Origin: Nitrosovibrio sp. Nv4
GTDB lineage: Bacteria; Pseudomonadota; Gammaproteobacteria; Burkholderiales; Nitrosomonadaceae
Direction: 5' to 3'
Length of the DNA: 64,000 nucleotides
Assembly: GCF_900215485.1 (NCBI RefSeq)
Contig: NZ_OCMZ01000001.1
Span: 744,001 to 808,000 of the forward strand
A program made the position numbers and the translations under genes. The notes beneath the pieces were generated by a model. That model saw nothing but the letters and a program-made list of their open reading frames with translations. It had not been told where the DNA came from and searched no databases. Position 1 is the stretch's first letter, and each line of letters begins with the position of its first letter. Below are positions 28,706-64,000 of the stretch, in pieces.

Positions 28706-29476
28706 ATGGAGAGAGTTTTTACTCTGACGGAACGAGAGCTGGAATATCTATTCCGAATTATCGATTCATCGATCACTGTTTTACAGCGTCACCAGTTTTT
28801 TTTATGGGCACAAGGCGAGGTACAAAGCCTGCTGCCGCATGGCATGCTCATATGCATATTCGATGAAGGGTCCGGTCAGGCTGTCAATATCGAAAAGTTC
28901 AGCCGGACAAATATCAACGAACTGAAAATTTCCGAGCTTTGCCGGCCGGATGGCGGAATAATATTCCGCGCCATGTCCGCGTGGAGTCTGGGGAGAAATC
29001 AGCCACTGCTGCTTTGCCCACATAATCCCGGCGCGAATGCGTATAAGCATTTTGCGGCCGACCTCAAGGGTGACGATCTGGAGCGCATTGCAGCGCACGG
29101 CATGTTTGATGCCAATGGCCGCACAAGAAGTTTCTTCACCTTTACGCAAATTTCAGGTGCATTAACCGAGCGTCATGCGTATTTCCTTGAGCTGCTGATG
29201 CCCCATATGCATATGGCGCTGGTGCGCATACTGTTCCATGAACGCCATCAGAAGCACGGTATTGTGGCGGGAAAAACCAGGAAACTTGTCACCGACCGGG
29301 AAACGGAAATTCTACGTCACGTGCAGACGGGCAAGAATAATCAGGAAATCGCAAGTTTGCTGAATATCAGTCCGCTTACTGTTAAAAACCATATCCAAAA
29401 AATCCTGCGCAAGCTAAATGTTAACAACCGGGCCCATGCGGTGGCCAAAGCCATGGCATTGAAGATTACGCTTTAA
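28706..29476 (+). CDS. epsA: LuxR-type regulator, EpsA-like (XrtB/PEP-CTERM associated)
   Basis: The 256-residue protein ends in a LuxR/GerE helix-turn-helix (residues 195-250): TDRETEILRHVQTGKNNQEI, ASLLNISPLTVKNHIQKILR and KLNVNNRAHAV. Residues 1-190 are an alpha/beta sensor-like domain with no phospho-acceptor receiver motif. Size, domain plan and the neighbouring PEP-CTERM gene fit EpsA, a regulator found with exosortase/exopolysaccharide loci. No exosortase gene is in the window, so the subgroup name is an inference. AGGAGA lies just before the ATG. It is transcribed toward the riboswitch-led gene group and may regulate it. Confidence 0.75.
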   Translation: MERVFTLTERELEYLFRIIDSSITVLQRHQFFLWAQGEVQSLLPHGMLICIFDEGSGQAVNIEKFSRTNINELKISELCRPDGGIIFRAMSAWSLGRNQPLLLCPHNPGANAYKHFAADLKGDDLERIAAHGMFDANGRTRSFFTFTQISGALTERHAYFLELLMPHMHMALVRILFHERHQKHGIVAGKTRKLVTDRETEILRHVQTGKNNQEIASLLNISPLTVKNHIQKILRKLNVNNRAHAVAKAMALKITL

Positions 29477-29771
29477 AGGAAGCCTGGTTTCGTTCCGCTG
29501 CGATCGCGTCAGATGTAATTCTTCCACCCGCTCCCCCATCCCGCAATTCATCGGGACCATCGGTATACCGCCTCATTGCCGCATAGTCCGAACGTCTCAT
29601 GAAAAGCTCGTCCGCTTATCGATTTGCCGTCACATAAAGTTCTTAGCATGTCGGAGCGCATGAAGCAGAGTTTGAGATTGATCAGGCGCAGTAGCGATAC
29701 AAAAAATAGTTAAGAAGTACTACGAAAACCACGGTCGCGCTTCACGAGCACTTAACGATTCCTGCATATAG

Positions 29772-29788
29772 TGGCAAACGTCCGGCAA
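29772..29788 (+). promoter_or_regulatory. Candidate sigma-54 promoter
   Basis: TGGCAAACGTCCGGCAA has the required GG-N10-GC geometry of -24/-12 promoters; the -24 box is good (TGGCA) and the -12 box weak (CGGCA for TTGCA). A transcript would start near 29798, right where the riboswitch aptamer begins. PEP-CTERM genes are known to depend on RpoN with PrsK/PrsR in Zoogloea, which makes this plausible. Confidence 0.45.
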
Positions 29789-29799
29789 CAGGTACAAGC

Positions 29800-29904
29800 G
29801 CTCGAGCCGGTCAGGAACAAAGCCAAACCCGTTGCGAGGCGGGGACGGAAAGCTGCGGGTCTCCACTGCAAGCGGAGGTAGCCGGGTTGCTCCAAGACGG
29901 TTGA
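29800..29904 (+). ncRNA. Cyclic-di-GMP-I (GEMM) riboswitch
   Basis: The aptamer core reads GCCAAACC, a P2 stem CCCGTT/GGCGGG closed by a GCGA (GNRA) tetraloop, then GGGACGGAAAGC, GCGGGTCTCC, a variable loop, GGAGGTAGCCGGGTTGC. This order of conserved blocks is that of the GEMM-I class. The G equivalent to Vc2 position 20 is retained, favouring c-di-GMP over cAMP-GMP. The usual GGC...ACGCAAAG is changed to GCC...ACGGAAAG, which looks like a swapped base pair and supports a folded RNA. It ends about 85 bases before the PEP-CTERM gene start. The expression platform is unclear; a hairpin with stem ATGAGAC/GTTTCAT follows. Confidence 0.85.
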
Positions 29905-29987
29905 TCAGATGAGACGGTGTTTCATGGATCAGTCAGCCGGATTTTGATTTATTTGGTGCAACACTAACTACCTATGGAGTATCCGCA

Positions 29988-30872
29988 ATGAAGATGAATT
30001 TTAAAATCAAGGCACTCGCTCTCGCTGCCATCATGGCAGCCTCGGCCCCGGCCATTGCCGCTATCGATGGCGGCGCCACCGGTAATGGCGAACTGCTGCT
30101 CAACGTACGTTATTACGGTGGTACTTCTGCAACCACCGGTGGTGATGACATTTCGGGTCTGTTCGATCTCGGCATGGCAATGAACGATATGCTCGCTACG
30201 AACGGACAGGCTGGCTTTAGCCAAACCTGGGACCTTACTGGCGGTGCTTACGGAGCCTCATGGAATCAACTGATGAGCTTCGTCACCCCTGCCAATGCGC
30301 ACCTCGTCGAATTTAATGTCGTCGCCCTGGATAACACCGATCTCAGCGCCGCCGGAGGCGCACGTTATCTGACCACGGGGAATAAGGACGCCTGGCCGAG
30401 TCAAGGGAATACCAACGTGAAATTATTTTCCATGATGGAGCCGTATATCAATGCCAACAACGGTCGGGGTACGCATGCCACCGACGCTAATGGCGCCAGC
30501 GTTGCTACGCCGACTGACCCCAGCAATACCTTTTTCGGCGCCATCAATGGCTTTGGGCAGGGCGATACCTGGTTGACGAAGACGACTGTCGATACTACCC
30601 AGCCGTTGGGGACGGAGCAGAATTTCTGGTTTCTGACTACGTCTTCCACTTCCAACCTCGCACAAGCCACAAAGACCCCGTTTGGGTTTGACCTGAATCA
30701 AGACGGCAGCATCAGTGGAGACGAATTTAGCAAATTCAAGTTATCCGAGAACGGGATCCTCACCTTTACGAATCCATCAGTGTCGCCCATCCCTGAAGCG
30801 GATACCTGGGCCATGCTGCTGGCCGGGCTGGGCATGCTCGGCATGATGGTTCGCCGACGCGCAGGCGTCTGA
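29988..30872 (+). CDS. PEP-CTERM protein with EF-hand-type loop, riboswitch-controlled
   Basis: The 294-residue exported protein has a signal peptide (KIKALALAAIMAASAPAIA, cleavage near residue 25) and a long extracellular part rich in Gly, Ala, Thr and Asn. An EF-hand/dockerin-like calcium loop DLNQDGSISGDEF lies near residue 237, followed by a variant PEP-CTERM tail (PEADTWAMLLAGLGMLGMM then VRRR). Exosortase should cleave and release or anchor it in the matrix. It is the first gene after a c-di-GMP riboswitch, so its synthesis is expected to track sessile/motile state. The following genes on the same strand could be co-transcribed, with a 92-base gap to the next. Confidence 0.85.
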   Translation: MKMNFKIKALALAAIMAASAPAIAAIDGGATGNGELLLNVRYYGGTSATTGGDDISGLFDLGMAMNDMLATNGQAGFSQTWDLTGGAYGASWNQLMSFVTPANAHLVEFNVVALDNTDLSAAGGARYLTTGNKDAWPSQGNTNVKLFSMMEPYINANNGRGTHATDANGASVATPTDPSNTFFGAINGFGQGDTWLTKTTVDTTQPLGTEQNFWFLTTSSTSNLAQATKTPFGFDLNQDGSISGDEFSKFKLSENGILTFTNPSVSPIPEADTWAMLLAGLGMLGMMVRRRAGV

Positions 30873-30964
30873 GACTGCTATCGCCCTGCGCTGCCCCCTT
30901 CAGGGAGTCGGGAACAGAAGCAGGTATTAATTCGCAATATCAACCAGTTTAAAAGGATACCAAG

Positions 30965-32461
30965 ATGAAAATGAAACTGAGTAAAATTGCTCTGGCCGTA
31001 GCCGCGCTTGGCACGACCCCAATGGCTTTCGCGCTGACCCCCGCTCAAGTCGCTGCCGGTCCCACCACTTACATATGGTTGTCGGGTGCATCCGCCCCGA
31101 CCAATGCCGTGTTCCGCAGCGTGATGTCGCTTTGCAACGGCTTGGCTGGCAATGGCGGCGCCAATGATGCGCACATGTACCTGGAAAGCAGCGGCACCGA
31201 GCCTGGCAGGAGCAGCGGCGACAGAGTCGCGTACGCTTGCACCATGAGTTCCGCCGCCGGTTCGCTGGCGGGCAAGAAGGTGGTGGTTTATCACACGGTC
31301 GAGGGCGGTTCTTTCAATGCCTACGCCCCGCATCTGAGCATGGCGGGCGAGCCTAATCCCAACGGTTATCTGCCGGGCAATATCAAGCGCATCAACAACC
31401 TGGCATTGCTAGGCGGTGGCGGCAAATGCGCCGCAGGGGGTGCTGCTACCACCAGCGTCACGCTTAACGGCGTGGCCTATCCTATCGGACGCTACAATAA
31501 CTGTAGCGACACAGTTACCAAAACCTTCACTGCCTCGCTCAAAGGTGATGCCTCGGGTCTTCCCGGCCAGAGCTATCCCGACGGCGGCTTTTCTGATACC
31601 GAGTACGCGATTAACCAGCAGAATCTGGAGATCGCGCTGAGTTTGAGCTCGATAGGCGAAGAAGTGGCGACCAACATCGGCCAAGCCTTTGGCGTGGTGG
31701 CGAGCTACCCGCTTTATCTTCAGTTGCAGAAGAATGACGTTGCCGCCGGTGTGCTGGCTGCGACTTGCGATGACGGTTCTCCAACTGCCCCCAATCTCAC
31801 GCCCGCCTGTCAGCCCAGCCTGCCGGCCCAGCGCTATGCCGCTATTGCGGGCTTAGGTACGATTGGTAGCGTGGACGGTAGTCTATTCGGCGGACCTGCC
31901 GGTTCCGTAGTCAATCTGGTGCGTCGCGTTCCGACTTCGGGTACCCAGTCTGCTTCCAATCTGCGCTTCCTGAACAAGCCTTGTGCCACGGGCCTATCCC
32001 AGGGGGCGTTGGACCCCGCACGTGCAACCGACAGCACAGCCACAGCGATAGTGACCGAACAGTCCGGCACCAGCGGTGTGAAGAGCGCATTGAATACAGC
32101 AACTGGGGCGGGTCAGTTTGCTCTGGGTGTAGTGTCCATGGAAAACACCCCGGCACCGACCGCCACGACCGACCGCTGGGCTTTTGTCAAACTGGATCGT
32201 GTGTCTCCCAACTCCGACGCCCAGCAGCGTGCTGAAGCGATGGACGGCTCCTATACCTTCTGGTATGAGCTGGCGGCATTCACTGCCGGCGGTTCGGTCA
32301 GTCCTGCCAGCCCGAGTGCTGCTGCCTTGATTACGGCAGTCTCCGCCACTTTGGGTGAAAGCGATCTGAAGGGTATCTTTGCCACGCCGGTGGCCGGCGC
32401 GGGCGGTCCCACCTCCAAAGGCGCGCGCCTCGGCAACTCCTGCCAGCCTGCGGTCCAGTAG
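30965..32461 (+). CDS. Exported periplasmic-binding-protein-like protein, paralogue 1
   Basis: The 498-residue protein has a signal peptide (KIALAVAALGTTPMAFA, cleavage near 23). The mature start TPAQVAAGPTTYIWLSGASA resembles phosphate-binding PstS-like proteins, where a strand leads into an S-G-A-S/T ligand loop. Other conserved pieces are KKVVVYHTVEGGSFNAYAPH and LPGQSYPDGGFSDTEYAINQ. Several cysteines (near 57, 91, 157, 179) could form disulfides. It is a close paralogue of the gene at 34300-35820, and the two flank the tpsB gene. Ligand is unknown; phosphate or a phosphorylated compound is a guess from the fold resemblance and the neighbouring phosphatases. Confidence 0.7.
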   Translation: MKMKLSKIALAVAALGTTPMAFALTPAQVAAGPTTYIWLSGASAPTNAVFRSVMSLCNGLAGNGGANDAHMYLESSGTEPGRSSGDRVAYACTMSSAAGSLAGKKVVVYHTVEGGSFNAYAPHLSMAGEPNPNGYLPGNIKRINNLALLGGGGKCAAGGAATTSVTLNGVAYPIGRYNNCSDTVTKTFTASLKGDASGLPGQSYPDGGFSDTEYAINQQNLEIALSLSSIGEEVATNIGQAFGVVASYPLYLQLQKNDVAAGVLAATCDDGSPTAPNLTPACQPSLPAQRYAAIAGLGTIGSVDGSLFGGPAGSVVNLVRRVPTSGTQSASNLRFLNKPCATGLSQGALDPARATDSTATAIVTEQSGTSGVKSALNTATGAGQFALGVVSMENTPAPTATTDRWAFVKLDRVSPNSDAQQRAEAMDGSYTFWYELAAFTAGGSVSPASPSAAALITAVSATLGESDLKGIFATPVAGAGGPTSKGARLGNSCQPAVQ

Positions 32462-32505
32462 GCACTGCGCGAATGGACGGTGCAACGCCGTCCCAAATGT
32501 TACTC

Positions 32506-32531: not shown

Positions 32532-32576
32532 ATTTGTGTTTACAGGAAATGGTTCAGCTGGGTTTTGACGTTGCGA

Positions 32577-34136
32577 ATGATGAATAAAGTGCTGTGGGCA
32601 GGATGCTTGCTTTGCCTCATAGGTTGGATGCGTTTGTCCCATGCGCAGGAAGCCCGGTTCGATGTATTCGAATACCGGGTGGAAGGTGCGACATTGCTTC
32701 CTGTCACGGTGGTAGAGCAGGCTGTTTATTCCCATCTGGGCGAAAACAAAACCTTGGAAGATGTGGAACGCGCGCGCGATGCACTGGAACGCGCTTATCA
32801 CGATGCGGGCTATCTGACGGTGCTGGTAAGCATCCCCCAGCAAAAGGTCGATAGCGCGATAGTCAGGCTGGCAGTGACCGAAGCGCCGGTGAAACGCCTG
32901 CGCGTGGTTGAATCCCGTTATTTCAGTCCGGCTGATATCAAGGCGGCGATACCGGAACTGGCTGAGGGTAAAGTGCCGCATTTCCCAGAAATGCAAAAAC
33001 AGCTGGGAAACCTGAATCGCTCGGCTGATCGCAAAATTACACCTGTTTTAAGGGCTGGTAAGACGCCGGGCACGGTTGAAGTGGATCTGAAAGTGAAGGA
33101 TCAACTGCCGCTCCATGGCAGCGTGGAGCTGAACAGCCGCCAGATTCCAAATACGACATTAACGCGGCTCAGTGCGAATCTGAGTTGGGACAACCTGTGG
33201 CACAAACAGCACAGCCTTGGCCTGACGGGGCTCATCGCGCCGGAGAATCCGGACGAAAGCAAGGTATTTTCCGCCAATTACACGCTGCCAGTACCGATCG
33301 GCGGTTTTCTCGCCTTATATAGCGTCTATTCCGCATCGGACGTGGCTTCACTGGGTACGCTCAATGTACTGGGCAACGGCCTGTTGGTGGGGGTCCGTTA
33401 CATCCTGCCACTGCCGGGGAGTGACAAATTCTTCCATACCGCAACGCTGGGAGTGGATTACAAAGATTTCAGGCAGACGGTGAACCTCCTTGATGGGGGC
33501 AATTTCAACACGCCGATCAGCTACCTTCCTTTCACCGTAGGCTGGGATGGCACTTGGCTGGGAGAAGGACGAACCACCAAGTTCGGCGTATCCGCAAATT
33601 TCCACGTACGCGGACTGGTTGGAGATGAGGAGGAATTCGCCAACAAGCGCTTCAAGGGCCAGGCCAATTACGCATATCTGCGTGGCAATTTTTCGCACAC
33701 CGAAACTTGGCGTCAAGGCTGGGGGCTGGCCGGCCGGGGGAGCTGGCAGATCGCGGCGCAACCCCTCATCGCCAACGAGCAATCAATCATCGGCGGGGTA
33801 AATACGGTGCGCGGCTATCTTGAAGTCGCTGCATTGGGTGACGACAGCGTTACAGGGGGACTGGAAGCCTTTACGCCCAACTATGCCAACTATCTGCTCA
33901 ACGGGCTTGATGAATTCCGGCTGCTGGCTTTTATTGACGGAGGAATCGTGCGTGTGCAACAGCCGCTGCCGGGGCAGACGGACCGGTTCGATCTGGCGGG
34001 TACCGGGATGGGCTTCCGTCTCAAGGGCTGGAAGGGTGTGTCGGCGGACGTGAGCTGGGCTGTCGCGCTTGAAGAGGCCGGCAGGACGAAAGCGGGAGAC
34101 AAGCGGGTGCATTTTCTGTTTCGGCATGCGTGGTAA
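32577..34136 (+). CDS. TpsB outer-membrane transporter (ShlB/FhaC/HecB family)
   Basis: The 519-residue protein is the Omp85-type pore that exports the TpsA protein across the outer membrane. A signal peptide ends in RLSHAQEA near residue 24. POTRA-like domains follow (RFDVFEYRVEGATLLP, then LRVVESRYFSPADIKAAIPE). The C-terminal 16-strand barrel includes the diagnostic VRGY motif near residue 410 and ends VHFLFRHAW with a terminal aromatic residue. The frame is open from 32379; the ATG at 32577 (or 32580) gives the signal peptide. Its partner is almost certainly the giant gene at 36148. One binding-protein-like gene intervenes. Confidence 0.9.
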   Translation: MMNKVLWAGCLLCLIGWMRLSHAQEARFDVFEYRVEGATLLPVTVVEQAVYSHLGENKTLEDVERARDALERAYHDAGYLTVLVSIPQQKVDSAIVRLAVTEAPVKRLRVVESRYFSPADIKAAIPELAEGKVPHFPEMQKQLGNLNRSADRKITPVLRAGKTPGTVEVDLKVKDQLPLHGSVELNSRQIPNTTLTRLSANLSWDNLWHKQHSLGLTGLIAPENPDESKVFSANYTLPVPIGGFLALYSVYSASDVASLGTLNVLGNGLLVGVRYILPLPGSDKFFHTATLGVDYKDFRQTVNLLDGGNFNTPISYLPFTVGWDGTWLGEGRTTKFGVSANFHVRGLVGDEEEFANKRFKGQANYAYLRGNFSHTETWRQGWGLAGRGSWQIAAQPLIANEQSIIGGVNTVRGYLEVAALGDDSVTGGLEAFTPNYANYLLNGLDEFRLLAFIDGGIVRVQQPLPGQTDRFDLAGTGMGFRLKGWKGVSADVSWAVALEEAGRTKAGDKRVHFLFRHAW

Positions 34137-34299: not shown

Positions 34300-35820
34300 A
34301 TGAAAATGACTTTGAAACTGAGTAGAATAGCGCTGGCCATGGCAACACTTGGCACGACCCCTGCTGCACTCGCCCTGACCCCCACCCAGATTGCCGCTGG
34401 CCCCACCACCTACGTGTGGTTGTCCGGCTCATCTTCCACCACCAATGCTGTATTTCGCAGCGTAATGTCGCTTTGCAACGGCTTGGCCGGCAACCTGGGT
34501 ATCAATGATGCCCACATGTACCTGGAGGGCGGTGGCATCGAACCTGGTCATGTCTATGGCTTGCCTAACAAGGTCGGTTCCAGGTTCGCTTATGCCTGCA
34601 CCATGAGTTCCGCCGCAGGTTCGCTGAACGGCAAAAAAGTGGTGATGTACCATACGGTTGAAGGTGGTTCCTTCAATGCCCACGCGCCGCATTTGAGCAT
34701 GGCGGGAGAGCCGGATCCTCAGGGGTATTTGCCTGGTAATCTGAAGCGTCTCAATAATCTAGCGTTGCTGGGCGGTACCGGAAAATGTGCCGCTGGTCCC
34801 GCCGGTAGCACGCTCGTCACCCTTAACGGGGTGCCGTGGTCCATTGGACGCTACACTGGCTGCGACGATGTTGTAACTAAAACCTTCACGACCACGCTCA
34901 AAGGCGATGTCGCTGGTCTGCCCGGCCAGAGCTATCCCGATGGCGGCTTTTCCGATACCGAGTACCTGATCAACAAGCAGAATCTGGATATCGCGCTGAA
35001 TCTGAGCTCGATAGGCGATGAAGTCGCGATCAACATCGGCCAAGCCTTTGGCGTGGCAGTGAGCTACCCGCTGTACCTTCAATTGCAGAAGAACGACGTT
35101 GCCGCCGGTGTACTGGCTGCGACTTGCGATGACGGTTCTGCAACCGTCCCCAACCTCACGCCAGCGTGTCAGCCCAGCCTGCCGGCTCAACGCTATACCA
35201 CAATTGCTAATAGGGATTCGATCGGTGGGGTGGACGGCGGCCTGTTCGGCGGTCCGGCAGGTTCCATTGTCAATCTGGTACGCCGCGTCCCGACTTCTGG
35301 CACGCAGTCTGCTTCCAACTTGCGCTTCTCGAATAAACCTTGTGCCACGGGATTGTCGCAAGGCGCGCTGGAACCGGCACGTGCCACCGACAGCACACCT
35401 ACAGCGATAGTGACCGAGCAGTCCACCGCTGGGCACGTGAAAGACACCCTGAACACGGCGACCGGCGCGGGACAATTCGCTCTGGGCGTGGTGTCCATGG
35501 AAAATATCCCGACACCCACCGCCACGAATAACCGTTGGGCCTTCGTCAAGCTGGATGATGTATCCCCAAATTTTGACACCCAGCAGCGTGCTAAAGCGAT
35601 GGATGGAGCTTACACCTTCTGGTATGAACTGGCGGTATTCACTGCCGGTGGTTCGATAAGTCCCGCCAGCCCAAGCGCTGCTGCATTGATCACCGCAGTC
35701 GCCGCCACCTTGGGGGAAAGCGATCTGAAGGGTATTTTTGCTACGCCACTGTTCGGGGGCAGCGGCTCCGCCTCCAAAGGCGCACGCTTCGGCAATTCCT
35801 GCCTCCCTGCGGGCCAGTAG
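34300..35820 (+). CDS. Exported periplasmic-binding-protein-like protein, paralogue 2
   Basis: The 506-residue protein aligns along its whole length with the gene at 30965-32461, by eye more than three quarters identical. It shares the signal peptide, TPTQIAAGPTTYVWLSGSSS, KKVVMYHTVEGGSFNAHAPH and LPGQSYPDGGFSDTEYLINK. Paralogue 2 has an insertion of about six residues near 80 (GLPNKVG). AAGGATAC precedes the ATG in both genes, and both are followed by the same GGGACAGC hairpin, so the duplicated unit includes flanking regulatory DNA. It lies between tpsB and tpsA. Likely periplasmic or co-secreted; ligand unknown. Confidence 0.7.
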   Translation: MKMTLKLSRIALAMATLGTTPAALALTPTQIAAGPTTYVWLSGSSSTTNAVFRSVMSLCNGLAGNLGINDAHMYLEGGGIEPGHVYGLPNKVGSRFAYACTMSSAAGSLNGKKVVMYHTVEGGSFNAHAPHLSMAGEPDPQGYLPGNLKRLNNLALLGGTGKCAAGPAGSTLVTLNGVPWSIGRYTGCDDVVTKTFTTTLKGDVAGLPGQSYPDGGFSDTEYLINKQNLDIALNLSSIGDEVAINIGQAFGVAVSYPLYLQLQKNDVAAGVLAATCDDGSATVPNLTPACQPSLPAQRYTTIANRDSIGGVDGGLFGGPAGSIVNLVRRVPTSGTQSASNLRFSNKPCATGLSQGALEPARATDSTPTAIVTEQSTAGHVKDTLNTATGAGQFALGVVSMENIPTPTATNNRWAFVKLDDVSPNFDTQQRAKAMDGAYTFWYELAVFTAGGSISPASPSAAALITAVAATLGESDLKGIFATPLFGGSGSASKGARFGNSCLPAGQ

Positions 35821-36147
35821 GCCTCTTCTTTAATAGGCGATGCAATGCCTGCCCAGTAAGGTTGTACGGGACAGCTCTTTCGGGTTGTTCCATTTTCGGG
35901 ATTGTTCCATTTGGCTTATAGGTACGGTGGTGGGGGCGAGCTTTAAAGGCGGATTGGGTTTCGGATTGATGTGGTAGGTGCATTTTCCGTTTCGGCATGC
36001 CTGCTGGCGGACGGATGGTCAGTGCAATCTGGATCACGAGTCCATACGATACAACAAGTAATTATCCTGAAAAAAAAGATTAATGTACGTGATATGGGCC
36101 GTCCGATCGATCGGCAGCCGGAGACCGCCCTTAAAGGAATTGAGAAG
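35821..36147. other. Intergenic region upstream of tpsA
   Basis: It contains the degenerate hairpin and the tpsA ribosome-binding site (AAAGGA, nine bases before the ATG). The frame is open through it in phase with tpsA, but the sequence before 36148 does not look like protein. No promoter is evident. Confidence 0.5.
35868..35891 (+). repeat. Degenerate copy of the paralogue-end hairpin
   Basis: GGGACAGC (35868-35875) faces GTTGTTCC (35884-35891); it pairs only with G-U wobbles in RNA. It matches the position of the hairpin at 32506-32531 and shows that the duplication covered the 3' flank. Confidence 0.55.
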
Positions 36148-47139: not shown

Positions 47140-47218
47140 AATGTTCTTCCTGTTTTTAGAGATGCGATGGTTTTTAACCACAGCGCGGATTTGAATTAAA
47201 CGGCTACTCGGAAACCAG

Positions 47219-53639: not shown

Positions 53640-53643
53640 TGAC

Positions 53644-54312
53644 GTGGAATATCCATTGGAAAAGCATAAGCCGGCATGGATACGTTGGTGCGGCGTTGTA
53701 CTTGGTTTGGCCGCCGCGATCATGATGGCATTGTGGCTGAAGGAATTTTTGGGAAGCGACAAGCCACCGCCCAAGCCTTCACTCCAGCAGATCACCTTGA
53801 TCAAGCCACCTCCACCACCTCCGCCTCCGGAGCAAAAACCACCGGAACCGATCGTCAAGGAAGAGATAAAGCTATCCGAGCCTGAGCCTGAACCGATGGA
53901 TCAAGCCGACGAGCCGCCGCCTGGTCCGGATCTCGGCATTGATGCCGAAGGAACAGGCAGTGGCGACGGATTCGGGCTTGTAGGAAAAAAAGGGGGGGCC
54001 GACCTGATCGGCGGCTCGAAAGGGAATCCCTGGGCCTGGTATGACGCTATCGTAAATGACGCAGTGAATTCCGCTTTTCAGGACGCGCTGGCGCGTGAGA
54101 AGGCGCTCAAGGACAAGACGTACAAGGTGGTAGTGAAAGTGTGGATTGATGCTGATGGGAAAGTCGCGCGAACTGCGCTGGTTGATCAGACGGGGGATGC
54201 AAGGGTTGACGAGTTGCTCAAAGGCGTGCTGCAGACCTTGCGAGCCTTGCGTGAAGGTCCGCCCGAAGATATGCCACAACCGCTGAAAATACGCGTGACT
54301 TCGCGCGCCTAA
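53644..54312 (+). CDS. TonB-like energy transducer
   Basis: The 222-residue protein starts at a GTG four bases after exbD. It has one N-terminal TM helix (residues 14-33), a Pro-rich rigid spacer (eight consecutive prolines near residue 56, then EPEPEP), a Gly-rich region and a C-terminal TonB-type domain. That domain contains YKVVVKVWIDADGKVARTAL, GDARVDELLKGVLQTLRALR and a final ITS-like strand. It would transmit proton-motive force from the ExbB/ExbD pair to an outer-membrane protein. No TonB-dependent receptor is in the window; the porin downstream is the nearest outer-membrane candidate. Confidence 0.88.
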   Translation: MEYPLEKHKPAWIRWCGVVLGLAAAIMMALWLKEFLGSDKPPPKPSLQQITLIKPPPPPPPPEQKPPEPIVKEEIKLSEPEPEPMDQADEPPPGPDLGIDAEGTGSGDGFGLVGKKGGADLIGGSKGNPWAWYDAIVNDAVNSAFQDALAREKALKDKTYKVVVKVWIDADGKVARTALVDQTGDARVDELLKGVLQTLRALREGPPEDMPQPLKIRVTSRA

Positions 54313-56038: not shown

Positions 56039-56170
56039 CCTGATGACATACCGATCCAGGCAGCGGAAGTTGCGGATGCCGCGGCGCTTTGTTGTTGACG
56101 AAACGGCAGAGGCCGCGGTTGGGAGTTTTGTAATACATATTGTTCACGATATCAGGTGCAAGGTTCCCGT

Positions 56171-56854
56171 ATGAGCAACAGAGAAAAATGGATTCTACGG
56201 TTGTTGTGCTCTGTGGCGACAGTAGCTTTTCTCGCGGGTTCCGGGCCGCTGGGTGCTTTAGCCGCCAGCGCCAGTGATAAGGACGCTAAAAAAGAACGCC
56301 AGGCATTGCGCCGTGTGCAGCAGCAATTGAACGAAATTCAGCAGCAGAAATCGGCCGTGGACCAGGAAAACACGGTGTTGGAAGAGGCATTGAAAAAAGT
56401 CCACGACGAAACGGAATCTCACAAACGATCTGCGGCAAGTGCTGCAGCTAAAGCCTTTCGGCTCGAGAAAGATATCGACGCGGCAAACAACGAAAAAACT
56501 GAATTACGCTTGCGTCTGGACGAGGCGGCTAAACAAAACGAAGAATTATCCGTTCGGCGCCAACAACTGGAACAAGATCTGAAGGATACGGCAAACAGGC
56601 TGGCAAAGCAGAACGAGCATAGAAAGCTTTGCGAAGCCAATAACGGCGAGCTTTACCGGATAGGCCGCGAACTGGTCGATTGGTATGCTGACAAGGGTCC
56701 ATTGAGTGCCATTCTGGAGGCTGAGCCGTTCACGCGTATGAAAAGTGTCGAAATGGAAAATCTGCTAGAAAGTTATCGCGAGAAACTTGAAGTTCAGCAC
56801 TTGGACCGCTCTATTAATCAAAGTATCCGGGAACACCAATCGCCACATTTGTAG
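56171..56854 (+). CDS. Periplasmic coiled-coil protein
   Basis: The 227-residue protein has a signal peptide (ILRLLCSVATVAFLAGS, cleavage near 32). Then come about 120 residues of heptad-rich coiled coil full of Gln, Glu, Lys and Arg (ALRRVQQQLNEIQQQKSAVD, ELSVRRQQLEQDLKDTANRL). A conserved-looking C-terminal part follows (CEANNGELYRIGRELVDWY, KSVEMENLLESYREKLEVQH). The ATG at 56171 is preferred to an upstream start at 56156. It is 132 bases after the porin and on the same strand. I do not recognise a family; similar genes follow ExbB/ExbD/TonB/porin sets, so a structural periplasmic role is inferred. Confidence 0.7.
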   Translation: MSNREKWILRLLCSVATVAFLAGSGPLGALAASASDKDAKKERQALRRVQQQLNEIQQQKSAVDQENTVLEEALKKVHDETESHKRSAASAAAKAFRLEKDIDAANNEKTELRLRLDEAAKQNEELSVRRQQLEQDLKDTANRLAKQNEHRKLCEANNGELYRIGRELVDWYADKGPLSAILEAEPFTRMKSVEMENLLESYREKLEVQHLDRSINQSIREHQSPHL

Positions 56855-57281: not shown

Positions 57282-57716
57282 ATGAGGCATTGGCGCATCC
57301 GGCAGCATGCACGGGTAGCGCGTGGCTTCACGCTGCTGGAATTGCTGGTGGTGATGGTCATTATCGGATTGCTGGCAGGCTATGTTGCGCCCCGGTATTT
57401 TTCTCAGGTAGGCAAATCCGAGGTGAAAGTAGCGCAGGCCCAGATTGATTCTCTTGAAAAGGCGCTGGATCAATACCGGCTGGACACCGGGCACTACCCG
57501 ACTGCCGAGCAAGGGTTGGCATCGTTGACGGCACGGCCGACAAATGAGCCCAAATGGCAGGGTCCGTACCTTAAAAAGACAGCGCCGCCTGATCCCTGGG
57601 GGAAGCCATACGTCTATAAATATCCCGGCGAGCACAGTGAATATGACTTATTTTCCTACGGCAAGGATGGCCAGCCTGGCGGTACGGGCGAAGCAGCGGA
57701 TATCACGAACTGGTAG
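57282..57716 (+). CDS. gspG: Type II secretion major pseudopilin GspG
   Basis: GspG forms the pseudopilus of type II secretion. The prepilin signal is basic (residues 1-15) and is cleaved between Gly15 and Phe16 in ARGFTLLELLVVMVIIGLLA; Glu20 is the +5 residue needed for methylation and assembly. The periplasmic domain contains the GspG-specific YRLDTGHYPTAEQGLASL and DPWGKPYVYKYPGEHSEYDL with the calcium-site DLFSYGKDG. Length (144) is typical. AGGAGA precedes the start. It opens an operon whose next gene, gspF, begins six bases after the stop. Confidence 0.95.
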   Translation: MRHWRIRQHARVARGFTLLELLVVMVIIGLLAGYVAPRYFSQVGKSEVKVAQAQIDSLEKALDQYRLDTGHYPTAEQGLASLTARPTNEPKWQGPYLKKTAPPDPWGKPYVYKYPGEHSEYDLFSYGKDGQPGGTGEAADITNW

Positions 57717-57722
57717 GTTGCG

Positions 57723-58907
57723 ATGCGCTATGAAATAAAAGCTGTGCTTGCCGGACAGGGCATGATACTTCTGGAACTCGACGCCGATAGCGAGGAGGAC
57801 GCCCGTCTCCAGGTTGCAGCGCGGGGCGGGATGGTATTGAATATCCGGCGCAGCTTTTCCGGCTGGATGCCTAAGCCGAGGCTGCGTTTTCCACTGGCGC
57901 ACTTCAGTCAGGAGTTGCTTTCCCTGCTGGTGGCGGGACTGAGCCTGGTGGAGAGCATCGAGACGCTGGCCGATAAAGAACAGGATGCCGGAGCGCGCAA
58001 GATCATCGATGGATTGCTTGCGCGACTCTACGAAGGCGTGACGTTTTCCCGTGCGCTGGAATATTTCCCTCAAGCGTTCCCGCCGCTCTACGTTGCGACT
58101 GCGCGGGCGAGTGAACGTACCGGCGATCTGCCTGAAGCCTTGACACGTTTCATCAGCTATCAGACACAGATGGATCTGGCGCGCAAGAAACTGATTGGTG
58201 CATCCATTTATCCGGTTCTGCTACTGGTAATCGGACTGCTGGTTGCAGTATTTCTCCTGGTTTTCGTGGTGCCGAAGTTCAGCGCCATCTATGAGGACGT
58301 CGGCACCGATCTACCCTGGCTTTCTCAGCTTCTGATTCAATGGGGTCATTTCGTGCACGAGCGGGGATGGCAATTGGCGGGGATCGTAGCGGCTATGCTG
58401 GGTCTCATGCTCTATGGCATAACGCGGCCATTGTTCAGGACGTGGGCGATGCAACAGCTATGGCGCATCCCGGCTGTCGGAGAACGTATGCGGGTTTATC
58501 AGCTTGCGCGTTTTTACCGGACATTAGGCATGTTACTGCGTGGGGGCATCCCCGTCGTCAAAGCGCTGGAAATGGTGAACGGCCTGCTGCAACCGCATTT
58601 CCGGCCGAGAGTGCAGGCTGCCGCTACTCTCATTCGCGAAGGGAAAACGATTTCGGGTGCAATGGAGACGGAAGGGCTGACTACCGCTGTGGGCAGCCGT
58701 ATGCTGCGGGTCGGCGAAAGAACCGGCCTCATGGGGGAAATGATGGAGCGCATCGGCAACTTTCACGATGAGGAAATCGCGCGCTGGGTGGAGTGGATAA
58801 CCAAGCTGATCGAGCCATTGCTGATGGCCCTGATCGGTGGCGTGATCGGCGGAATCATCATCCTCATGTATATGCCGATATTCCAGTTGGCGGGAAGCGT
58901 CGGGTGA
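57723..58907 (+). CDS. gspF: Type II secretion inner-membrane platform protein GspF
   Basis: The 394-residue protein has the duplicated GspF/PilC domain: FSQELLSLLVAGLSLVESIE near residue 60 and FYRTLGMLLRGGIPVVKALE near 262. Each domain is followed by a TM helix (IYPVLLLVIGLLVAVFLLVF near 160, PLLMALIGGVIGGIIILMYM near 365). It anchors the assembly ATPase and pseudopilus. The N-terminal 50 residues form the usual small beta domain. It follows gspG closely, whereas the gap to gspE is unusually large (344 bases). Confidence 0.93.
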   Translation: MRYEIKAVLAGQGMILLELDADSEEDARLQVAARGGMVLNIRRSFSGWMPKPRLRFPLAHFSQELLSLLVAGLSLVESIETLADKEQDAGARKIIDGLLARLYEGVTFSRALEYFPQAFPPLYVATARASERTGDLPEALTRFISYQTQMDLARKKLIGASIYPVLLLVIGLLVAVFLLVFVVPKFSAIYEDVGTDLPWLSQLLIQWGHFVHERGWQLAGIVAAMLGLMLYGITRPLFRTWAMQQLWRIPAVGERMRVYQLARFYRTLGMLLRGGIPVVKALEMVNGLLQPHFRPRVQAAATLIREGKTISGAMETEGLTTAVGSRMLRVGERTGLMGEMMERIGNFHDEEIARWVEWITKLIEPLLMALIGGVIGGIIILMYMPIFQLAGSVG

Positions 58908-59251: not shown

Positions 59252-61012
59252 GTGAGCAAGGAAAGTGATCTGGGACAAATGAAATCTATGTCACCGTTGC
59301 AGCAGGAAAATTCCTGTGGAGACAGACTGGTGCCTCAACCCTCGTCCGCGGTGCCTTTGCTAGATGTTCGCCAGCTTGCCGAGGCGCGCAAAGAAGCATT
59401 CATCCGCGGTGTTTCGATGATCGGCGTTCTGGAAGAAAGATGGGAGCATGGGCCGGACGAGCTGATTGCGGAACTGGGCCGGCTGCTTCGGATGCCGGTC
59501 CTGACGATGGAGGAACTGCGATCCGCCGCACCCGCATTCGAGACATTGCCTTTCAATGAAGCGGTTGCGCGGGAATGCGCTGTGCTCCGGCGGGATGGGC
59601 GCCATATTTTCGCCGTAGGCAATCCGTTTTCGCCCCACCTGCGCGCCTGGGCCGAGGAATGCATTGACGTTGCAACTACCTGGCATCTGGTTCATCCGGC
59701 TGATCTGTCTGCTTTTTTTGCGCAGCAGGAGCAGACAATGCGTGCGATGGACAGCGTGCTGCCGGCGGGGGGACACGGCGTCAAACAAACGGGCCAAGAA
59801 GATCTTTCGCTCAAGACCATCAACGAGGGCACCAGTCCGGTAGTGCGGCTGGTGCATTCGACGCTGTACGACGCGCACAAGTCACAGGCAAGCGACATTC
59901 ACCTGGAAATGATAGCGGGCGCATTGTCCATCAAATACCGGATCGATGGCGTACTTACCACGATTGGCGTAATGCAGGGCGCGGACTTGGCGGAACAGGT
60001 GATTTCCCGCATCAAGGTGATGTCCGATCTGGATATTGCCGAGCGACGTGTACCGCAGGACGGCCGTTTCAAGATTTCCATCCAGGGGCGGGAGATCGAC
60101 TTTCGCGTATCGATCATGCCCAGCGCCTTCGGGGAGGACGCGGTGTTGCGTATTCTCGACCGGCAGGCGCTCGCCGACCACGTCGAGGGCTTGACACTGA
60201 ATCATCTCGGTTTCGACCCGGTCACCATGGCGAGTTTACGCCGCCTGAGTTCGGAGCCCTACGGCATGCTGCTGGTCACCGGTCCCACCGGTAGCGGCAA
60301 GACCACCACGCTTTATGCCGCGATTTCGGAAGTCAACAAAGGCCACGACAAGATCATCACCATCGAGGACCCGATCGAGTACCAGCTGCCGGGCGTGCTG
60401 CAGATACCCGTCAACGAAAAGAAAGGGCTCACCTTCGTCCGTGGCTTGCGCTCGATTCTGCGCCACGACCCGGACAAGATCATGGTGGGCGAAATCCGCG
60501 ACCCGGAAACGGCGCAGATCGCCATACAGGCGGCATTGACGGGACACCTTGTATTTACCACCGTGCACGCCAATAACGTATTCGATGTCATCGGCCGTTT
60601 CTCGCACATGGGAGTGGATCCCTACAGCTTTGTTTCGGCCTTGAACGGAATCGCTGCGCAAAGGCTGGTCCGTCTGCTTTGCACCCATTGCGCAGTGGAA
60701 GCGCGCCCGGACGCGCAATTGATTGCGGAGTCCGGAATTGATAGCGGGCAGGCCGACGCGTTTCGCTTTCGCACCGGCAAAGGCTGCGGCCAGTGCCGGG
60801 GAAGCGGTTATCGCGGGCGCAATGCGATCGCGGAGATGCTGGTATTGAACGATGAGATCCGCGAACTCATCGTCGCGCGCGAACCCATACGCCGGATAAA
60901 AGAGGCAGCCAGGCGAAGCGGAACCCGCTTCCTGCGCGAAGCGGCCCTGAACATGGTGCGGGATGGGCAAACGAGTTTACAGGAGGCCAATCGTGTCACT
61001 ATTGTGGCGTGA
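59252..61012 (+). CDS. gspE: Type II secretion/type IV pilus assembly ATPase GspE
   Basis: The 586-residue hexameric ATPase powers pseudopilus assembly. The N-terminal domain (residues 40-160) is of the GspE/PilB N1 type. The ATPase domain has Walker A GPTGSGKTTT near residue 345, the Asp box ITIEDPIEYQLPGVLQIPVN, Walker B-like IMVGEIRDPETAQIAIQAAL near 411 and the His box TGHLVFTTVHANN. A four-cysteine zinc finger follows: LCTHC near 476 and GCGQC near 511. The start is GTG 59252. The end overlaps the next gene by 20 bases. Confidence 0.94.
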   Translation: MSKESDLGQMKSMSPLQQENSCGDRLVPQPSSAVPLLDVRQLAEARKEAFIRGVSMIGVLEERWEHGPDELIAELGRLLRMPVLTMEELRSAAPAFETLPFNEAVARECAVLRRDGRHIFAVGNPFSPHLRAWAEECIDVATTWHLVHPADLSAFFAQQEQTMRAMDSVLPAGGHGVKQTGQEDLSLKTINEGTSPVVRLVHSTLYDAHKSQASDIHLEMIAGALSIKYRIDGVLTTIGVMQGADLAEQVISRIKVMSDLDIAERRVPQDGRFKISIQGREIDFRVSIMPSAFGEDAVLRILDRQALADHVEGLTLNHLGFDPVTMASLRRLSSEPYGMLLVTGPTGSGKTTTLYAAISEVNKGHDKIITIEDPIEYQLPGVLQIPVNEKKGLTFVRGLRSILRHDPDKIMVGEIRDPETAQIAIQAALTGHLVFTTVHANNVFDVIGRFSHMGVDPYSFVSALNGIAAQRLVRLLCTHCAVEARPDAQLIAESGIDSGQADAFRFRTGKGCGQCRGSGYRGRNAIAEMLVLNDEIRELIVAREPIRRIKEAARRSGTRFLREAALNMVRDGQTSLQEANRVTIVA

Positions 61013-61820
61013 CCGGATACAGATTTTTTTGGCGCCAGACAGGGTCGACCTGGTCCGTTCCTATCGCGGGATAAAGCCGAAGCAGACTGGCCGACATGTG
61101 GCGGTGTGCGAGCAGACACCCGGCATGCCGGCATGGGAGGCGGCGCTCGCCCAATTGAAACAGATGCTTGCCGATGAAACGGGCGCCGGGATCTCCGTCA
61201 TTATTTCCAATCATTTTGTGCGCTATGCGGTGATACCCCCGCAATCGAAGATCGAGACACCCGCGGAATTGTACGCCTACGCTGCCTTTCAAATGCGCGA
61301 GGTATACGGAGAGCGGGCCACTGCATGGTCGCTTGGCGTGGGTTCCTGGGACCCTGTCACGGGGGCGGTGTGCGCGGCGATCGAGCACAGCCTGGTCGAA
61401 CGATTGCAGGAGCTTGCCGCTCAGCGCGCGATGCGGTTGAAAGGAATAGAACCCTACCTCACCGGCGCATTCGATCACTGGCACAAGCGCTTCGACAAGT
61501 GCCGGGCCTGGTTTGCCTTGATCGAGACCGGCCGTCTTTGCCTGGCCTCACTGGAGGGTGGCGCCTGGCGGCGAATCAGCAACCAGAGAATATGGCATCA
61601 CGTGGAAGACGAACTGCTTGCGACACTCGAGCGGGAGGCACTGCTTTTTTCCGCGCGCGGGGAAGCGGAGGAACCGGTTTATCTTTTTGCTCCTGAGCAT
61701 CCGGAATTTACGCTGCCTCATGATTGCGGCTGGCGGGTTGTGCCGTTGCAGGATGATGGCCGGCCTGCGCCGCCGCATTATCCACAGTACCTGTCCGCCC
61801 CCATGAGCAAGACAGCGTGA
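60993..61820 (+). CDS. PilM/GspL-like cytoplasmic platform protein
   Basis: The 275-residue protein starts at a GTG preceded by AGGAGG at six bases, inside the end of gspE. It has a fragmentary actin-like fold seen in PilM and the cytoplasmic half of GspL: IQIFLAPDRVDLVRSYRG, then ISVIISNHFVRYAVIPPQSK and FALIETGRLCLASLEGGAWR. There is no TM helix, so it corresponds to a separate PilM-type subunit rather than a full GspL. The next genes supply short membrane partners, as PilN and PilO do for PilM. It probably links GspE to the inner-membrane ring. Confidence 0.75.
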   Translation: MSLLWRDRIQIFLAPDRVDLVRSYRGIKPKQTGRHVAVCEQTPGMPAWEAALAQLKQMLADETGAGISVIISNHFVRYAVIPPQSKIETPAELYAYAAFQMREVYGERATAWSLGVGSWDPVTGAVCAAIEHSLVERLQELAAQRAMRLKGIEPYLTGAFDHWHKRFDKCRAWFALIETGRLCLASLEGGAWRRISNQRIWHHVEDELLATLEREALLFSARGEAEEPVYLFAPEHPEFTLPHDCGWRVVPLQDDGRPAPPHYPQYLSAPMSKTA

Positions 61821-61824
61821 ATTG

Positions 61825-62361
61825 ATGCGTCGTCTCAAGCTGAAATTCCCCTCCGATGGAGGGATGGCAAGACAGGCGGGGTACATTTTGATGGTGCTGG
61901 GCATCGTTCTCTTTGCCGTCGTGCTGCATCAGCTCAAGGGTGCAATGGACGAGGCGGCTTATTGGGATTTGCGCATTGCCCGCATGGATCGGCGGGTGCA
62001 GCGCGAGGCGGCGCCGCAGGTATTGTCGGGGCCTCGCGGGCGTGAAATAAAACAGGAGATAAAAAGAGCCAATGCGGTGATGAGCGAGATCGACCTGCCG
62101 TGGCAAGCGCTGTTCGATTCGGTCGAATACGCTTCCAGTCACGACGTGGCTCTGCTGTCATTTCAGCCGGATGCGGCGGGCCGTACGATTCGTATTGGTG
62201 CTATAGCGAAGAATATTCCGGCGATGCTCGATTTTGTAAGCGCTTTAGAGCGTGAACCCGCCCTTCGGGACACCTTCCTGCTCAAGTACGAAATCAAACG
62301 GGAAGATCCCCAGCGGCCCGTGGTTTTTTCTCTTACGGCGTCATGGATCGAAACTTCCTGA
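61825..62361 (+). CDS. PilN-like inner-membrane platform protein
   Basis: The 178-residue protein has a short cytoplasmic N-terminus, one TM helix (residues 20-38, GYILMVLGIVLFAVVLHQL), a helical linker and a small periplasmic alpha/beta domain (SSHDVALLSFQPDAAGRTIR, NIPAMLDFVSALEREPALRD). This is the PilN or GspL C-terminal plan. The ATG at 61825 is better than the TTG at 61822. Its last codons lie in the first copy of a 22-base tandem duplication whose second copy holds the start of the next gene. Confidence 0.75.
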   Translation: MRRLKLKFPSDGGMARQAGYILMVLGIVLFAVVLHQLKGAMDEAAYWDLRIARMDRRVQREAAPQVLSGPRGREIKQEIKRANAVMSEIDLPWQALFDSVEYASSHDVALLSFQPDAAGRTIRIGAIAKNIPAMLDFVSALEREPALRDTFLLKYEIKREDPQRPVVFSLTASWIETS

Positions 62362-62386
62362 CAAATGGATCGAAACTTCCTGACAA
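62343..62386 (+). repeat. Tandem 22-base duplication at a gene junction
   Basis: Two perfect adjacent copies (62343-62364 and 62365-62386) each begin ATGGATCGAAAC and end TTCCTGACAA. The first contains the stop of the PilN-like gene and the second the start of the PilO-like gene. Confidence 0.95.
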
Positions 62387-62940
62387 ATACCTGGCTGCGG
62401 GTGCGTTGGCAAACCGAGCGGCTGGGCGCCGCCGGAAAAATCGGCCTCGGATTATTCGTGTTCTCGGCGGTTTTTTTTGTGGTGGCAGTATTACCGCAAC
62501 AGGCGGCGTCCAGAGTGCTGATGATGAGAGCTGAAGCAATCGAGCAGCGCCTGAAAGCGGAGCCGGTGCAGGGAAACCGCAGGGCCCCCAAAATACAAGG
62601 CGATCAGGGATTGCAGGCTTTCTACGCTTTTTTCCCAAAAATGGATTCTTCGCCGTTCTGGATCAAGGAATTGGTACAGGTTGCGGCGCAGCGCGATGTG
62701 GAGATTACTCGCATGGATTATCGCATGGTATATGAAAGGGATGTGAAGTTGGCGCGCTATGAAATGATACTGCCGGTGCGCGGCAAATATGCCCAGGTGC
62801 GCGGTTTTATCGCCGATGCGCTGCGAGTTGTGCCGGCAATGGCACTGGCCGATGTGACGCTCAAGCGTCAGGACGCGGCCTCCGAGTTGCTTGACGTGAA
62901 TCTGAAATTCAACCTCTATCTGGGCGGAGGCGGGACATGA
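62365..62940 (+). CDS. PilO/GspM-like inner-membrane platform protein
   Basis: The 191-residue protein has a cytoplasmic N-terminus, a TM helix (residues 26-46, KIGLGLFVFSAVFFVVAVLP), a short coiled linker (LMMRAEAIEQRLKAEP) and a ferredoxin-like periplasmic domain (VQVAAQRDVEITRMDYRMVY, ILPVRGKYAQVRGFIADALR). This matches PilO and GspM. It overlaps the next gene by four bases (ATGA). An additional ATG in the first duplication copy is in another frame and does not encode this protein. Confidence 0.75.
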   Translation: MDRNFLTNTWLRVRWQTERLGAAGKIGLGLFVFSAVFFVVAVLPQQAASRVLMMRAEAIEQRLKAEPVQGNRRAPKIQGDQGLQAFYAFFPKMDSSPFWIKELVQVAAQRDVEITRMDYRMVYERDVKLARYEMILPVRGKYAQVRGFIADALRVVPAMALADVTLKRQDAASELLDVNLKFNLYLGGGGT

Positions 62941-63482
62941 AACGGGCGGCAAGAGGGCGTACGTTATGGCTGGGCGGAGCATTGCTGGCCACACTTCTCG
63001 CTACCCAGTGGGTCAGCGGCGAAGAGGGCCCGCAACCGGAACAGGCTGTTGAAGACAGGGTTGTTCAAAAAGACGCTACCGGCACAGAGGGCGTAGAGGA
63101 AAAGAAGGCGGAACAGCTACAGCTTGAGCGTCTGGAACGCAGGCGCTTCAGCGCGCAGGCAGGCGACATTTTTAGTCGTCAATCGTGGGTGCCGCCCCCG
63201 CCTTCGGCTTCGATGAAGCCGTCGAAGCCAACTCCGCCGCCACTGCAGTTCAAATATCTCGGCAGGGTCAGGGACGGGAGCGAGACGCGGGTGTTTCTTG
63301 CCCTGGCCGAACGTAACTATATCGTCAAGCCGGGCGAGAGCATCAACAGCCAATACCGGATGGATGAGGTTACTGATGAACATATCACATTCACTTATCT
63401 TCCACTCAATGCAAAACAGATGCTTTCCACCGCGGGTGGAACGGCAGGGAATACTCGATCGGAATGGGAAAATACATTGTAG
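62937..63482 (+). CDS. PilP/GspC-like periplasmic connector
   Basis: The 181-residue protein has an N-terminal hydrophobic segment (LWLGGALLATLLATQW), an acidic linker (residues 30-65), a Pro-rich spacer (VPPPPSASMKPSKPTPPP) and a small beta domain. The beta domain (PLQFKYLGRVRDGSETRVFL, NYIVKPGESINSQYRMDEVT) is like the homology region of GspC and PilP that contacts the secretin. Position after PilM/N/O-like genes and before a secretin-type gene supports this. The next gene starts inside its end. Confidence 0.75.
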   Translation: MKRAARGRTLWLGGALLATLLATQWVSGEEGPQPEQAVEDRVVQKDATGTEGVEEKKAEQLQLERLERRRFSAQAGDIFSRQSWVPPPPSASMKPSKPTPPPLQFKYLGRVRDGSETRVFLALAERNYIVKPGESINSQYRMDEVTDEHITFTYLPLNAKQMLSTAGGTAGNTRSEWENTL

Positions 63483-64000
63483 TTGTCTTGATCCTGGCCA
63501 CGTTTGCCGGATGCGCGACAAATAACGCATTTGTCGAGGGCAAGCGGCTTATTGCCGAAGGTCAGATGGATACCGGTCTGGCCAGCCTGGAAGAGGCGGC
63601 GCGCAAGGAGCCGGATAACCTCGAGATTCGCGCGGTGCTTGTGCGCCAGCGCGAGGCGGTTGCAGGACGTTTGCTGCTGGACGCCGATAGGGCCAGGGTA
63701 TCCGGCGACCTGGCTGGCGCGGAGCAGGGGTACCGCCGCGTCCTGGAGCTGAATCAGCACAACGAACGCGCGCAGGCGGGCCTGGCCGCGCTCGACACGG
63801 AGCGCAGGCATACCGCCCTGACAAGACATGCGGAAGCATTATTGGAGCGCGGAGATTACGCGGCCGCGGAATCGGAAGTCCGGTCGGTTCTTCAGGAAAA
63901 TCCCCTGCAGCGGGATGCGCGCCGGCTGATGCAGCGGATATCAGACCTGGAGGTGCAGTCAGGGAAAATGGGTCCCGTCCTGAAGACCGCGTTCAAGCAG
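63464..64000 (+). CDS. Secretin-associated lipoprotein, N-terminal part (probable GspD/PilQ, runs off window)
   Basis: The ATG at 63464 lies inside the end of the preceding gene. The frame stays open to base 64000 (179 codons). It encodes a lipoprotein signal (VVVLILATFAGC, lipobox Cys17) and then TPR-like helical repeats: FVEGKRLIAEGQMDTGLASL, AEQGYRRVLELNQHNERAQA and ALLERGDYAAAESEVRSVLQ. Secretins with an N-terminal TPR module occur in compact GspE/F/G clusters. The secretin core is beyond the window, so a separate TPR lipoprotein is the alternative. Confidence 0.65.
   Translation, partial: MGKYIVVVLILATFAGCATNNAFVEGKRLIAEGQMDTGLASLEEAARKEPDNLEIRAVLVRQREAVAGRLLLDADRARVSGDLAGAEQGYRRVLELNQHNERAQAGLAALDTERRHTALTRHAEALLERGDYAAAESEVRSVLQENPLQRDARRLMQRISDLEVQSGKMGPVLKTAFKQ

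Follow-up and report, generated by a model that had tools for sequence, protein, structure and literature searches.

Within the genome of Nitrosovibrio sp. Nv4, a 64,000-nucleotide stretch (positions 744001–808000 of contig NZ_OCMZ01000001.1, hereafter the window; genome 3.27 Mb) carries from 28.7 kb onwards an island that, judging from its sequence, we understand with moderate confidence as a single functional unit for the export of surface proteins, gated by the attachment signal cyclic dimeric guanosine monophosphate (c-di-GMP), equipped with a private TonB motor and built on a conserved module of two-partner secretion (TPS) and TonB genes. The parts of the island, their conserved order, the match to a c-di-GMP riboswitch and the homology to the PUMA3 cluster of Pseudomonas aeruginosa are direct results of the analysis. 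The TPS-TonB module is of two types and is wider than the original prediction made from this DNA had supposed; PUMA3/Pdt is the type that the literature consulted deals with. Three full amoA-type genes identify the host as an ammonia oxidiser. Genomes and loci are referred to by our G and L numbers where they have to be told apart.

The island begins with the gene of a LuxR-type regulator, followed by the riboswitch, a gene for a PEP-CTERM protein (PEPa), a PstS-like gene (copy a), the TPS transporter gene tpsB, a second PstS-like gene (copy b) and the exoprotein gene tpsA. Behind tpsA lie, on the minus strand, genes for a further PEP-CTERM protein (PEPb), the phosphatase PhoX and a glycerophosphodiesterase (GDPD); the plus strand then resumes with an ExbB fusion, ExbD, TonB, Porin_5 and coiled-coil protein, and continues through GspG, GspF and GspE to four PilM-P-like genes, a secretin with tetratricopeptide repeats (TPR) and pilins, the operon extending beyond the window edge. 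Domain searches recovered every gene class named in the original prediction (TpsB, TpsA, PhoX, GDPD, ExbB/ExbD/TonB-like, Porin_5, coiled coil and GspG/F/E). The POTRA domain and ShlB barrel of TpsB and the TPS domain of TpsA mark the pair as two-partner (type Vb) secretion. The tpsA open reading frame (ORF) comprises 3457 codons, and because the ESPR match begins at residue 60 the protein probably starts near there and has about 3,398 residues, consistent with the length given earlier. DUF3739 and Porin_5 matched in none of 14 control genomes (P. aeruginosa is absent from the 13 control names seen).

The likeness to PUMA3/Pdt (PdtA, PdtB, ExbB2, ExbD2, TonB4, PA0696, PA0697) lies in a seven-part cluster that the island has in common with PA7: a DUF3739 TpsA, TpsB, a DUF2341-LamG-ExbB fusion, ExbD, TonB, Porin_5 and the coiled-coil protein. 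PA7 has the same three-part ExbB fusion together with strong Porin_5 (2.8e-219) and DUF3739 (1.4e-41) matches, and its gene order is the one published for PUMA3 (PMC2729926, PMC7035377). Gene order, domain fusion and homology alike support the earlier proposal that the island is a counterpart of PUMA3. In the literature, DUF2341 is listed as an extra domain, of unknown function, in the ExbB transporter family (PMC12505986), and ExbB2-ExbD2-TonB4 of PUMA3 was referred to in 2020 as a still uncharacterised putative TonB system (PMC7035377). The two clusters differ in that sigma/anti-sigma genes often stand in PUMA3 where the island has its LuxR gene and riboswitch; in the island, TpsB precedes TpsA, PEP-CTERM and PstS-like genes are added and the ExbB fusion falls outside the PUMA3 clade. 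Among the ORFs scanned (28.7–64 kb) there were no sigma/anti-sigma (VreA/I/R-like), YbjN or PpiC genes; two weak matches, Sigma70_r4_2 and FecR_C, fall on the helix-turn-helix of LuxR and on the secretin, respectively. Nor did sigma/anti-sigma, YbjN or PpiC match in the five genus genomes whose cluster was read throughout (G006, G011, G012, G021, G022).

The original prediction called for a search for conserved gene order, and the TPS and TonB genes clearly do cluster in relatives. Of 376 other genomes in an even sample of the class, 23 carry the ExbB fusion; 21 places were read out of 28 match rows (threshold 1e-5), with ExbD and TonB at all 21, TPS genes at 18, a porin at 17 and a PstS-like gene at 14. 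At some places, G067, G256 and G306 among them, the TPS genes flank the ExbB genes on the opposite side or run on the opposite strand. A second set of loci, the top 80 among 469 relatives in a ranking from a Klebsiella ExbB fusion (the named loci, PA7 among them), has TpsB and ExbD at 80/80 and TonB, porin and coiled coil at 79/80, the exception being a 4.1-kb contig; YbjN (71), PpiC (65), LysR (40), FecR-like (27) and sigma genes (23) are less frequent, these lower counts being minima since the loci end at 10 kb or at the contig edge. A midpoint-rooted tree of 57 ExbB fusions unites 21, including those of PA7 and Klebsiella, in one clade with support 1.0 (the list of 21 was drawn up after the tree was seen) and leaves that of the window outside. 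Loci of the PUMA3 clade often include sigma, anti-sigma, YbjN and PpiC genes; the second type, to which the window belongs, has a PstS-like gene, often LuxR and PEP-CTERM genes, and in some lineages the pilus-like block. The module is also plasmid-borne, in Aquabacterium, Klebsiella, Methylosinus and Cupriavidus (no TpsA is listed in the Cupriavidus stretch). The Aquabacterium plasmid matches the window order (pilin, LuxR, ankyrin protein, PEP-CTERM, hypothetical, TpsB, TpsA, ExbB fusion, two ExbD, TonB, porin, hypothetical) and the Klebsiella plasmid follows the PUMA3 order down to LysR. On the latter (L219, from Klebsiella quasipneumoniae), typed as conjugative, the complete PUMA3-type cluster sits near insertion sequence elements and arsenic-resistance genes.

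Closer to the host, the PstS-like protein matched in 20 of the 61 genomes searched, the window genome included, and the locus was mapped in 18 other genomes of the family and in G060 from another family. The row LuxR, PEPa, PstS-like, TpsB, TpsA is complete in 13 of these 18; it is cut or broken off in G002 and G015, reduced to the PstS-like gene in G004, differently ordered in G018 and decayed in G009. In the five relatives read across the whole cluster, the genes from ExbB to the coiled-coil protein lie 3' of TpsA and 5' of trpG, and in G060 the ExbB fusion directly follows TpsA. The decayed operon of G009 (L074) has a 77-residue PstS-like fragment immediately adjoining pieces of the TpsA C-terminus, and TpsB is not matched. 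Four genus genomes (G012, G015, G018, G021) harbour elsewhere a second ExbB fusion, 46–48% identical to that of the window.

Of the possible controls at the island, the c-di-GMP riboswitch is the one that the sequence supports best. Its RF03167 match lies above the gathering score and, together with its recurrence, bears out the earlier placing of c-di-GMP control at the left end: in 16 of 19 family genomes, that of the window included, the riboswitch is found 1.06–1.20 kb 5' of the PstS-like gene, where G004, G005 and G018 are without it. It is the single site in the genome for RF03167 and RF01051, the two c-di-GMP riboswitch families covered by the genome-wide search. In other families, 3 of 19 places of the window's type have a c-di-GMP-I-type match (G186, 64.8 bits; G269, RF01051 51.5 bits; G050, 57.5 bits and thus under the gathering score of 59), and at each of the three a gene whose end resembles PEP-CTERM (by eye) begins 82–164 nt 3' of the riboswitch and is followed by the PstS-like gene. 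G050 and G060 were searched at a laxer threshold and the other 17 places at the gathering score, so weaker matches may be missed there. Family genomes place the same riboswitch class 5' of other large exported-looking proteins too (by eye), in keeping with a surface or attachment regulon. The three PUMA3-type loci scanned (L219, L220, L263) gave no riboswitch match, a promoter and terminator scan 5' of the operon gave nothing above chance, and our literature search returned no paper joining a c-di-GMP riboswitch to a TPS operon. G033 (L078) has three c-di-GMP-I-GGC matches within 2 kb, possibly repeated switch-gene units, with mutually similar exported-looking proteins of 387 and 388 residues downstream; in other families (L079, L082, L083), GGC-type riboswitches precede proteins of ~780–800 residues that by eye may be related.

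Table 1 Features of the island, with positions in the window and the matches on which each assignment is based
Feature	Position	Strand	Evidence
LuxR-type regulator	28706..29476	+	GerE 1.1e-17; synteny (adjoins riboswitch; position kept in relatives)
c-di-GMP-I-GGC riboswitch aptamer, 92 nt 5' of PEPa	29813..29895		RF03167 61.9 bits (gathering 59); + strand
PEPa, exported PEP-CTERM protein, first gene 3' of riboswitch	29988..30872	+	PEP-CTERM 2.5e-6; synteny
PstS-like exported protein, copy a	30965..32461	+	family profile vs PDB phosphate-binding proteins 5.9e-6
TpsB transporter	32577..34136 (likely start; ORF opens at 32379)	+	POTRA_2 4.3e-13, ShlB 6.1e-12; CdiB 1.1e-6 (PDB)
PstS-like exported protein, copy b	34300..35820	+	80% identical to copy a
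TpsA giant exoprotein	35971..46344	+	ESPR 5.5e-13, TPS domain 8.1e-20, DUF3739 1e-37
PEPb, PEP-CTERM protein, variable insert	46510..47181	-	PEP-CTERM 9.9e-9
PhoX phosphatase, SRRAFLQ twin-arginine motif, variable insert	47219..49378	-	PhoX 1.3e-170
Exported GDPD, variable insert	49752..51071	-	GDPD 7.7e-19
ExbB fusion: apparent signal peptide, DUF2341, LamG, ExbB channel	51568..53223	+	MotA_ExbB 2.8e-27, DUF2341 1.4e-14, Laminin_G_3 2.9e-12
ExbD	53235..53639	+	9.6e-27
TonB-like protein	53644..54312	+	TonB_2 1.7e-6
Porin_5: predicted 16-strand barrel and N-terminal helices	54335..56038	+	Porin_5; model
Exported coiled-coil protein	56156..56854	+	weak SMC-type coil matches; conserved position
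GspG-type pseudopilin	57282..57716	+	TIGR01710 181.4 bits (cut-off 88.85)
GspF/PilC-like protein	57723..58907	+	T2SSF 2.5e-51; under GspF cut-off
GspE/PilB-like ATPase	59252..61012	+	T2SSE 1.5e-127; under GspE and PilB cut-offs
Four small genes in PilM/N/O/P positions	60963..63482	+	weak PilN 3.8e-4 and PilO 6.3e-4, both under Pfam cut-off; other two by position
Start of 748-residue TPR-secretin, continuing outside the window (L002:3464-5710), then pilin-like genes	63464..64000	+	Secretin 1.1e-38, TPR, STN

These parts can be assembled into a provisional scheme. A change in c-di-GMP would set the expression of the operon through the riboswitch and the neighbouring LuxR regulator, a rise presumably turning it on, and the operon would then make the PEP-CTERM protein, the PstS-like proteins, TpsB and the giant TpsA. 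TpsA would reach the cell surface through TpsB, the usual route in type Vb secretion. The lectin-like part of the ExbB fusion should lie in the periplasm, and the private ExbB-ExbD-TonB complex may contact a partner in the outer membrane (the stalked porin and TpsB being the probable ones) and harness the proton-motive force to assist in mounting, holding, turning over or serving the exoprotein. Export of partner surface proteins is the probable task of the type II/IV-pilus-like block. The outcome would most likely be surface attachment or the capture of a ligand, phosphate or organic phosphate being one possible ligand.

A number of observations weigh against this scheme. Sixteen of the 19 other-family places of the window's type are without a riboswitch match. 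When the leader folds freely, an aptamer strand occludes the ribosome site in 9 of 15 rows (two of which are identical), and in the folding test, the result of which is mixed, forcing the aptamer opened the ribosome site only to 0.11–0.89. Part of the genus lacks the full module: of 23 genus genomes, 15 have a close ExbB fusion and one more has a broken copy. Three of the 21 class places have no TPS genes (G166b; G303, a 21.7-kb contig; G151, of which one flank was read), and G166a, counted among the 18 that do, has only a TpsA part ~20 kb away. The 80 named loci were ranked from a PUMA3-type query. Finally, TPS is held to need no energy source (PMC5422565), and the motor therefore has no known role.

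That last point also frames a bolder proposal, which we put forward tentatively and consider somewhat improbable: an energised class of TPS in which the ExbB-ExbD-TonB motor would sense through the periplasmic lectin-like domain on ExbB, act through the stalked porin and drive export, anchoring or turnover of the giant DUF3739 exoprotein, against the rule for type Vb, with a riboswitch providing the c-di-GMP gate in ammonia oxidisers. The module is widespread yet barely studied, and a TonB system regularly accompanies one TPS family in many families of bacteria; this constant association makes the question of a powered TPS directly testable by removal of single genes. The island places a c-di-GMP riboswitch before a TPS operon and is a candidate for a role in the settling of ammonia oxidisers on surfaces. 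CdrAB, a TPS adhesin under c-di-GMP control (PMC5422565), is among the closest known systems; it differs in being controlled by FleQ, whereas the island has a riboswitch and a TonB module.

Another reading, in line with the original prediction, takes the island as one for phosphorus acquisition. TpsA, the PstS-like proteins, PhoX, GDPD and the porin would serve in phosphate capture and import, and phosphatases would leave the cell through the type II-like block; we regard this reading as unlikely. The best remaining argument for phosphate is the PstS-like family. Singly, the PstS-like proteins of the window have no Pfam, NCBIfam or significant PDB match, and AlphaFold models of the two copies had a pLDDT (model confidence score) of 29 and were not used. 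A profile of the 26-member family matches PDB phosphate-binding proteins (best E 5.9e-6), and PBP_like_2 is found in seven of the 26 (E <= 0.1; best 1.9e-9), so the earlier label 'PstS-like' is right at the level of the family. An R-x-x-x-S-G-T stretch aligns onto a loop of the PDB proteins, and at S/T43, S116, D211, R321, S325, G326 and T/S327 all 26 members, or all but one, keep the residue or have a conservative exchange; PstS uses a similar set of ligand residues, of which the alignment backs the R and SGT positions only. The island proteins differ from PstS and PBP_like_2, which they resemble in the profile match and this stretch, in their length of ~500 residues with inserts and in having, taken singly, no Pfam match. 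Their gene is duplicated in the window, where the copies flank tpsB; no second copy between TpsB and TpsA was found in the relatives mapped (18 family genomes and G060).

Phosphate control of PdtAB and PUMA3 has been published for P. aeruginosa (PMC5422565, PMC7035377), and a phosphate link for the whole kind may therefore exist. The claim that the island is dedicated to phosphorus is, on the other hand, not borne out. No Pho box was found: the scan called for by the original prediction gave two matches with <=3 mismatches to one consensus against 4.27 expected from shuffles, and a looser PhoB-type pattern gave two against 6.65, below expectation in both cases and in agreement with what had been noted before. 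The control element seen is of the c-di-GMP type. PhoX and GDPD stand on the opposite strand and vary within the genus: in the 18 family loci fetched, several of which end before the site, PhoX occurs in five other genomes, with a remnant in a sixth, and GDPD in ten. G001 (L062) retains only short PhoX fragments between TpsA and GDPD, so that PhoX seems to have been lost in part of the genus, and in G011 and G016 GDPD alone separates TpsA from the ExbB fusion, save for a PEPb fragment in G016. Outside the genus and family we found one PhoX (G041) and one alkaline phosphatase (G130), and PhoX, GDPD and a G130-type alkaline phosphatase are found at 0 of the 80 named loci. PhoX has a twin-arginine motif and could thus do without the TPS genes, and the host has three PBP_like_2 genes over the family cut-off elsewhere in its genome.

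Equally doubtful is import in the manner of HxuCBA, whereby a displayed TpsA would catch a large extracellular ligand, TonB and the porin would import the freed product and the periplasmic PstS-like protein would receive it. TonB, porin and a binding-protein family do share one cluster here, and HxuA, HxuB and HxuC set a precedent for TPS with a TonB-dependent transporter (PMC5422565). The island porin, however, is a Porin_5 member whose model looks like open porins: other porins are its best structural matches. A plugged 22-strand barrel would mark a TonB-dependent receptor; no such receptor is among the structural matches listed, a listing that cannot prove absence, and a PDB profile search with the porin family gave no match. 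Moreover, the PstS-like gene matched at none of the 80 named loci. OmpM1, the attachment porin of Veillonella, is 16–17% identical to the island porin in a match that leaves the N-terminal helices uncovered.

The type II/IV-pilus-like block contains the GspG-F-E genes described as a type II-like operon, but an identity with Hxc is not supported, GspG alone reaching its family cut-off: against the curated type II secretion cut-offs GspF scores 261.5 (424), GspE 486.8 (630.25) and GspD 156.6 (351.35), and no GspL, M or K was recognised among the ORFs scanned. The block shares homologues of GspG, GspF/PilC, GspE/PilB and secretin with Hxc and other type II systems and with MSHA and type IV pilus machines; it differs from them in that F, E and D fall under the curated cut-offs of the models listed and in the N-terminal TPRs of its secretin. 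It was found in seven of seven family genomes and at five of 25 other places (G041, G060, G077, G142, G281; by secretin or GspE, some partly read). In the five relatives read across the cluster the block, from GspG to the pilins, lies 5' of LuxR, and in the window genome (57282 to L002:7411) it lies between the coiled-coil gene and trpG; it has therefore moved. That the TPS operon, the TonB cluster and the pilus-like cluster adjoin merely by chance, as this movement and the rarity of the block outside the family might suggest, is very improbable, for the TPS-ExbB-ExbD-TonB-porin grouping is met again in many families and on plasmids; chance adjacency is already refuted for the TPS-TonB core and is possible for the pilus-like block, PhoX and GDPD.

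To the left of the island, an SOS mutagenesis-like cassette (22322-28389, minus strand) comprises an S24/LexA-like repressor, a small ORF and what we take to be an ImuB-like polymerase and a DnaE2-type Pol III alpha. Further left on the same strand lie another PEP-CTERM protein (11672-12361) and an MMPL-family transporter (17491-20256), a 34–36% relative of which stands close to the island in other genomes.

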